Shown piece by piece: positions 48,600 through 50,549 of a stretch of 64,000 nucleotides of DNA (position 1 is its first letter; each line of letters opens with the position of its first letter). The position numbers and the translations under genes are program-made. Source of the stretch: Thermodesulfobium narugense DSM 14796 (GTDB taxonomy: Bacteria > Thermodesulfobiota > Thermodesulfobiia > Thermodesulfobiales > Thermodesulfobiaceae); NCBI RefSeq assembly GCF_000212395.1, contig NC_015499.1, positions 248,001 through 312,000 on the forward strand, written 5' to 3'. The notes under the pieces are model-generated. The model did no database searches. It was not told the origin of the DNA and saw only the letters and a program-made list of their open reading frames with translations.

Positions 48600-49052
48600 T
48601 TATATTTTTCTAATCATCGCAACTTCATCACAATCAGGAAACTTTGGGCACTTTACACATTCAGACCATATTTTTTGCGGAAGATGTGACTTATCTACTA
48701 TTTCAAAACCTATTGATTTAAAAAAGACTACTTGATACGTTAAAGCAAACACCTTTTTTAGCTTAAGTTGCCGTGCTTCTTCAATCAAAAAATTTACAAT
48801 TTCTTTTCCTAACCCCTTTCTCTGATATTCACTATTTACACACAAACTTCTTATTTCTGCAATATCTTCCCAAAAGATGTGAAGTGCGCCGCAACCGCAG
48901 ATTTTCCCATCAATTTCTAACACGCAAAAGTCTCTTATGCATTCATAAATGTCCGAAAGAGGCCTTATGAGCATAAGATTTTGTTTTGCAAAGCCTTCTA
49001 TTAATGTCTTTATCTTTTTTGCGTCGTCGATCCTGGCTTTTCTAATAATAAT
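48600..49052 (-). CDS. ArgA-like GNAT acetyltransferase with a probable AUU start codon
   Basis: A GNAT protein similar to short N-acetylglutamate synthases. The core is FWEDIAEIRSLCVNSEYQRKGLGKEIV, with YQVVFFKSIGFEIVDKSHLPQKIWSECVKCPKFPDC at the C-terminus; the Cys-rich end is typical of this subgroup. The first ATG in frame (48974) would lack the N-terminal strand. The frame continues upstream as IRKARIDDAKKIKTLIEGFAKQNL, a clear match to the family start, and reaches AGGAGG with 6 bases to three ATT codons at 49052-49044. No ATG, GTG or TTG is available there, so initiation at AUU is inferred. The protein then has about 150 residues. Confidence 0.85.
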   Translation of the reverse strand: MIIRKARIDDAKKIKTLIEGFAKQNLMLIRPLSDIYECIRDFCVLEIDGKICGCGALHIFWEDIAEIRSLCVNSEYQRKGLGKEIVNFLIEEARQLKLKKVFALTYQVVFFKSIGFEIVDKSHLPQKIWSECVKCPKFPDCDEVAMIRKI

Positions 49053-49078
49053 TTTTGTCCTCCTAAAAATTAATTGTT

Positions 49079-49432
49079 TTATGTAATAAGGGCAACTGCT
49101 ACCGAATAATCTTTTTCGTGAGATATAGAAACTAATATTTCTAAACTAGATAATTCTATATCATTGGCATGTATTTTTACAGTTACTCCTTCATCCCTTT
49201 TGCCAATTATTTCTATTTGTTTCATCTCCAATCTTGTAAAACAGTGTTGATAAATGGCTTTTATGCAAGCTTCTTTTGCTGCAAACCTTGCAGAAAGACA
49301 TTCTATATAAGTTTTTTTACTTAGGCAATATTCTATCTCGCTTTTTGTAAATATTTTTTCTAGGAATTTAGACTTATATTTATTTAACGCTCTTTCTATT
49401 CTTTTGTTACTAACTATATCGATTCCTATCAA
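49079..49432 (-). CDS. acpS: Holo-[acyl-carrier-protein] synthase
   Basis: AcpS moves phosphopantetheine from coenzyme A to acyl carrier protein. The 117 residues show MIGIDIVSNKRIERAL with the metal-binding Asp, IFTKSEIEYCLSK, and SARFAAKEACIKAI with the second metal ligand Glu. The C-terminal VSISHEKDYSVAVAL is also characteristic. The start overlaps the previous gene by 4 bases. Confidence 0.93.
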   Translation of the reverse strand: MIGIDIVSNKRIERALNKYKSKFLEKIFTKSEIEYCLSKKTYIECLSARFAAKEACIKAIYQHCFTRLEMKQIEIIGKRDEGVTVKIHANDIELSSLEILVSISHEKDYSVAVALIT

Positions 49433-49848: not shown

Positions 49849-49994
49849 AGTTTATATTATTATAGATTATAAGAATTAATTGTTGTTATTTTTTTTATTT
49901 TCTCGTATAATCAAATATATTTTAATTTGAGTTGCTTTTGTTTATAATTTAGGTTAAAATTATTGTCTTATATTTAAATTCGGAGGTGAACGTT
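49849..49994. promoter_or_regulatory. Divergent promoter region between the acpS-mfd run and infC
   Basis: A 146-base AT-rich region that must hold promoters for both directions. TATAAT at 49943-49948 is a reasonable -10 box toward infC, with no clear -35 box at 17 bases. Confidence 0.4.
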
Positions 49995-50549
49995 ATAAGT
50001 AAAGAATATGCCGTTAATGAGGAGATCCAGATCTATCCAAGTGTTAGATTGATAGATGTGGATGGGCAGCAGCTAGGTGTTCAGTCTACAGAAGAGGCTC
50101 TTAGGCTGGCAAGAGCAAAAGGTAGTGATCTAGTCCTAATTGCTCCTCATGGAAGCCCCCCAGTGGCAAGGATAATGGATTACGGGAAATTTAGATTTGA
50201 GCAGTCAAAAAAAGAAAAATCCCAAAGAAAACATCAGAGACAGACTGTTGTCAAAGAAGTTCGCTTAAGGCCTGCTATAGGTGGAAACGATCTTCTTACA
50301 AAAGCAAAAGCTGCGCAAGACTTCATTGACGAGGGCAATAAGGTTAAATTGAGCGTTATCTTTAGAGGACGGGAAATGATCCACATGAATCAGGGCATAG
50401 ACCTTGTTAACAGATTTTTCGCTCTACTTAAAAACGCTGTTATGGAAAAACTCCCTGAGGTCGAAAGCGAGAAACATCTTGTTGCAATAATCGGCCCAGC
50501 TAAAATAAAGCAGAAAACAGAACAAAAAGGAGGGTTGAAGGATGCCTAA
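49995..50549 (+). CDS. infC: Translation initiation factor IF-3 with a probable AUA start codon
   Basis: IF-3 keeps ribosomal subunits apart and checks start codons. The sequence reads ISKEYAVNEEIQIYPSVRLIDVDGQQLGVQS, then APHGSPPVARIMDYGKFRFEQSKKEK and a C-terminal domain with KVKLSVIFRGREMIHMNQG. GGAGGTGA (49982-49989) lies 5 bases before ATA at 49995. The GTG at 49986 would lie on that ribosome site. infC starts at AUU, AUC or AUA in many bacteria and represses itself that way, so ATA is preferred. rpmI overlaps its end by 8 bases, and rplT follows. Confidence 0.92.
   Translation: MSKEYAVNEEIQIYPSVRLIDVDGQQLGVQSTEEALRLARAKGSDLVLIAPHGSPPVARIMDYGKFRFEQSKKEKSQRKHQRQTVVKEVRLRPAIGGNDLLTKAKAAQDFIDEGNKVKLSVIFRGREMIHMNQGIDLVNRFFALLKNAVMEKLPEVESEKHLVAIIGPAKIKQKTEQKGGLKDA

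Follow-up and report, generated by a model that had tools for sequence, protein, structure and literature searches.

Evidence for an AUU start codon in an acetyltransferase gene of Thermodesulfobium narugense and in a few further genes of its genus

The window analysed here is a stretch of 64,000 nucleotides from the genome of Thermodesulfobium narugense DSM 14796, which comprises 1,898,865 bases in one contig. It carries an acetyltransferase gene preceded by an AcpS-like gene on the same strand, and infC, the gene for initiation factor IF3, on the opposite strand. The features of the locus are as follows:

48600..49052, minus strand: coding sequence of a GNAT N-acetyltransferase of the PRK07757 family, 150 amino acids (profile match and codon-position divergence)
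49059..49064, minus strand: Shine-Dalgarno sequence AGGAGG, 6 nt upstream of the first ATT and kept in species G001, G002 and G003 (see below)
49050..49052, minus strand: first ATT, 6 nt past AGGAGG (spacing and conservation in G003)
49047..49049, minus strand: second ATT, 9 nt past AGGAGG, homologous to the first ATT of G001 and G002
48972..48974, minus strand: first in-frame canonical codon, an internal ATG (codon 27)
49079..49432, minus strand: AcpS-like upstream gene with a TTG start (identity by sequence motifs only)
49982..49989, plus strand: Shine-Dalgarno sequence of infC, GGAGGTGA
49995..50549, plus strand: infC (IF3; TIGR00168), with a probable AUA start at 49995 that is kept in all four species

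A preliminary description of this DNA placed AGGAGG 6 nt ahead of a run of three ATT codons. These coordinates hold: the minus strand reads AGGAGG (49064-49059), the spacer ACAAAA (49058-49053), ATT at 49052, 49049 and 49046, and then AGA AAA GCC. The reading frame stays open over the 31 codons that precede the first ATT, with no ATG, GTG or TTG among them, and none follows until the ATG at 48974, 26 codons downstream. No ATG, GTG or TTG occurs in any frame within about 50 nt past AGGAGG in the window's own DNA, which leaves the Shine-Dalgarno sequence without another visible client. The protein read from ATT matches NCBIfam NF005840 (PRK07757) over residues 2-150 (E=1.1e-63), scoring 213.7 bits over the whole length against a curated cut-off of 154 bits, and Pfam GNAT models match it also; the similarity said to run through the 26 codons ahead of the first ATG is thus real and begins at residue 2. 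An N-acetylglutamate-synthase-like function is only a guess, because the match to PRK07922 (amino-acid N-acetyltransferase, N-acetylglutamate-synthase-like) reaches 134.2 bits against a cut-off of 180 and that to PRK12308 also falls below its cut-off. The AcpS-like gene ends 26 nt before the first ATT on the same strand, and the acetyltransferase is therefore probably a downstream cistron on a shared transcript. The start region does not seem to form any special RNA structure: its folding energies were no better than those of shuffled sequences, and this idea was rejected.

The window's species (G000) was compared with three other species of the genus (G001, G002 and G003), and in all four an ATT stands at the start of the acetyltransferase after a strong Shine-Dalgarno sequence. 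The start region reads AGGAGG-ACAAAA-ATT-ATT-ATT-AGA in G003 and AGGAGG-AAATTGAA-ATT-ATT-AGA in G001 and G002. As in the window, G003 has no canonical in-frame codon from the upstream stop to the equivalent of the ATG at 48974. The first such codon in G001 and G002 is an internal TTG at codon 16, with no Shine-Dalgarno sequence seen before it; this codon is TTA in the other two species, and an out-of-frame TTG 3 nt past the Shine-Dalgarno sequence of G001 and G002 is likewise absent from the window's species. Over the first 24 codons past the ATT run the window and G001 show 2, 0 and 11 differences in codon positions 1, 2 and 3, and the stretch is therefore coding. Homologues outside the genus mostly carry ATG or GTG at the start codon, reading ATG ATT AGA, GTG ATT AGA or similar (for example L154, L156, L159, L162 and L163) where the genus reads ATT ATT AGA, although in some, such as L008 and L014, the canonical codon lies elsewhere. 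The PRK07757 members outside the genus, whose profile covers the acetyltransferase over its whole length, thus mostly start in the ordinary way, and the second ATT of the window is the homologue of their ATG. The spacing from AGGAGG, 6 nt for the first ATT and 9 nt for the second, would suit either of them as initiation codon.

Because ATT is found in four species and is homologous to ATG outside the genus, an AUU start of the acetyltransferase is strongly supported, and the original reading of this gene as one that begins at AUU, with no in-frame ATG, GTG or TTG before 48974, stands. The same alignment of orthologues, which had been suggested as a check, excludes the sequencing error that had been named as a possible refutation: an ATG misread as ATT, or altered in assembly, is next to impossible when ATT is present in the genomes of four species. 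Translation from the ATG at 48974, the first canonical codon in the frame, would give a 124-amino-acid protein and make the upstream similarity a relic. This is very unlikely, as such a start would remove 26 residues that match the family, no Shine-Dalgarno sequence is visible upstream of it, AGGAGG would lose its client, and both the family similarity and the third-position divergence reach up to the ATT. Another possibility is that ribosomes reach the cistron by frameshift or read-through out of the AcpS-like gene, which lies on the same strand 26 nt away; a strong conserved Shine-Dalgarno sequence separates the two frames, however, and the upstream stops and the intergenic sequence vary between species, which makes such a route extremely improbable. 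The AUU start itself places the gene with near-cognate starts on two counts: a conserved protein begins there without an in-frame ATG, GTG or TTG, and a species-conserved Shine-Dalgarno sequence lies at working distance from the ATT.

The start of infC appears to be near-cognate as well. The GTG at 49986 that is listed as the start of the infC reading frame sits inside the Shine-Dalgarno sequence and has none of its own. In all four species this sequence is followed by AAC or AAT, GTT, ATA and AGT or AGC; if ATA is taken as the first codon, the second residue aligns to residue 1 of the solved IF3 chain 5me0. For these reasons AUA is the probable infC start throughout the genus sample. Relatives from other families show ATT, ATA or ATC after a strong Shine-Dalgarno sequence at infC (for example L123, L124, L129, L133, L134 and L144); a near-cognate start is ordinary for this gene, the usual IF3-autoregulated arrangement. 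The distance of about 1 kb between infC and the acetyltransferase had been offered as an argument for IF3 control. This argument fails because infC is divergent, being read from the opposite strand, and because IF3 exerts its effect on 30S subunits in trans. A visibly altered IF3 was rejected, since the residues that we take to correspond to E. coli R99, K110, R131 and R133 are preserved; the genus has Asp at position 116, a site that varies elsewhere, and nothing in the IF3 residues inspected points to altered start discrimination. An unusual tRNA was rejected as the cause, since the sampled 45% of the genome showed only CAU tRNA-Met genes of the ordinary type.

Three further genes have a conserved ATT after AGGAGG, AGGAG or GGAGG in 4/4 species:

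L073:14263-15960 (G000 C1:584263-585960; L107, L108), minus strand: RNase J, AUU 6 nt past AGGAGG, four-species conservation
L035:15837-16388 (L109, L110), minus strand: GmhB-like HAD phosphatase, AUU at variable Shine-Dalgarno spacing, four-species conservation
L045:1849-2310 (L117, L118), plus strand: GtrA-like protein, AUU after GGAGG, four-species conservation

For RNase J the start reads AGGAGG-AAATAT-ATT or AAATAC-ATT in G000 and G003 and AGGAGG-ATATAT-ATT in G001 and G002, and the leader contains an indel without regard to frame. The GmhB-like start is AGGAG-TCAAAA-ATT in G000 and G003; G001 and G002 have longer spacers, one base apart, so that here too the lengths vary irrespective of the frame. 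The GtrA-like gene has GGAGG-CTCAT-ATT or TTCAT-ATT, and its nearest canonical codon, a TTG, is TTT in G001. Two copies of the GtrA-like gene occur in the window's genome, the second at G000 C1:837883-838359, and the copy of G003 in the sample is a shortened reading frame.

A survey of about 850 kb of the 1.9 Mb genome (about 45%) against 800 kb of G003 looked for a conserved Shine-Dalgarno sequence (at least 5 matches in each of the two species) lying 5-10 nt ahead of a non-canonical codon that is itself conserved, with the first shared canonical codon no fewer than 12 codons further on. The flagged genes numbered 21/727 in the genus and 1/341 in a control genus (comparison of G039 with G043), where the same pipeline returned only infC with an ATA start. 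Fisher's exact test gives P = 0.004 for this difference, a value to be read with the G+C contents of 0.34 in the genus and 0.45 in the control, the unequal sample sizes, the single control genus and a criterion that was settled only once two previous versions had been applied to this genome. Among the 21 flags many do not concern AUU, and some stem from AT-rich or internal Shine-Dalgarno-like sequence, as with a MurD-like gene that has a usable ATG at codon 26. For the hand-picked set, infC included, the counts of 5/727 and 1/341 do not differ significantly (P = 0.67). ATT occupies the 6-nt position at 4 of about 12 sites against a background of 4.1% (binomial P = 0.001), a hand count made after inspection and descriptive only. 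The four-species conservation of each gene, as read from the alignments, stands independently of these survey tests.

On the simplest history an ancestral AUG became AUU by a G-to-U change, probably before the four sampled species diverged, with the AUU then kept in position by the strong AGGAGG. Pairing of the initiator tRNA is imperfect at AUU, and a low yield and sensitivity to IF3 are therefore to be expected, as for infC. Established biology would thus predict that little acetyltransferase is made. The general biology of IF3 makes its IF3 sensitivity plausible, and on this analogy it may be under IF3 control. Overall, we consider it highly probable that translation of the acetyltransferase begins at an AUU held by a strong AGGAGG, as one of a small AUU-started set in the genus that would comprise RNase J, the GmhB-like phosphatase and the GtrA-like protein, with infC beside it at AUA.

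The regulatory half of this explanation, though not the AUU start, faces a substantial competitor to which we give a little under an even chance: the AUU may be real and without regulatory meaning, near-cognate starts being tolerated after strong Shine-Dalgarno sequences and drifting in low-level genes. AUU starts in several unrelated genes would fit such drift, as would the roughly counted 39% of first shared canonical codons that are GTG or TTG; retention of the AUU may accordingly reflect tolerance instead of regulation. Set against drift, ATT has been kept in 4/4 species at 86-89% protein identity for both RNase J and the acetyltransferase, and no reversion to ATG, GTG or TTG was seen in the four species for either gene.

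Non-canonical starts outside infC are already known, and the acetyltransferase adds one. The statement that AUU is almost confined to infC proved too narrow, given the published pcnB and cvfC1 (AUU), ccpN (AUA) and sigR (GUC) and at least three other well-supported AUU genes in this genome. Streptomyces sigR, like the acetyltransferase, is a non-infC gene with a non-canonical start (GTC, or GUC), but its repression by IF3 was shown experimentally, with extra infC and fidelity mutants, whereas the acetyltransferase start is known here from sequence comparison (PMC5472188). The cvfC1 (AUU) and ccpN (AUA) genes of S. aureus share with it a near-cognate start conserved among species and a strong, in their case extended, Shine-Dalgarno sequence; they were established by ribosome profiling and by reporters, near-cognate versions of which gave about 10% of the AUG yield in poor medium, and the acetyltransferase by comparative evidence (PMC13009471). 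E. coli pcnB, an unrelated protein that also has AUU outside infC, is limited by its start according to Binns and Masters (2002) as cited in PMC13009471. For infC itself, in E. coli (AUU) and many other bacteria (AUU, AUA or AUC), the near-cognate start is subject to IF3 discrimination (PMC5472188). A near-cognate start and a strong Shine-Dalgarno sequence are common to infC and the acetyltransferase; infC is autoregulated, whereas the acetyltransferase does not encode IF3 and so would lack a direct feedback loop.

The open-access papers searched yielded neither an AUU start for RNase J nor a genus-wide AUU set. Such a set is possible on the present alignments, which suggest that a deep-branching genus uses the weak AUU start unusually often, perhaps to hold certain proteins scarce. 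We regard it as rather unlikely, though worth stating, that AUU and AUA starts mark a translational regulon of the genus that responds to IF3 and includes RNase J and infC; if so, the level of one initiation factor would jointly set selected enzymes and the decay of mRNA. With several AUU starts conserved in it, RNase J among them, the genus is a natural test set for IF3 control beyond infC. Ordinary gene prediction admits ATG, GTG and TTG only, and genes with other starts are therefore annotated too short or missed.

Some weaker candidates were also noted. A LivH-like permease gene (L034:3994-4923, plus strand; L111, L112) has a conserved ATT with the Shine-Dalgarno sequence about 10 nt away, and its downstream TTG is CTT in two species. 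A DUF4446 protein gene (L038:10292-10774, plus strand) has ATA and a weak Shine-Dalgarno sequence, its next 26 codons being free of canonical ones, and a Gfo/Idh-like gene and a short reading frame are weaker near-cognate candidates only. An FtsQ-like reading frame (L076:16138-16878, plus strand; L115, L116) with CTG after TAAGGAGGT was set aside as a near-cognate start: another frame, read by eye, resembles the C-terminal end of the upstream ddl-like gene, so that conservation there is no evidence of a start. The MurA-like gene (L073:10387-11706, plus strand; L209, L210) may have either a near-cognate start or a frameshift: up to codon 47 G000 and G003 have no ATG, GTG or TTG in frame in common, a GTG at codon 35 is present in G000 only, the first 40 codons in G001 and G002 showed no canonical codon, and an out-of-frame ATG lies inside a stretch identical in all four species. 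We also note a tRNA-SeC gene (L039:5597-5690, plus strand), which suggests selenoprotein use.
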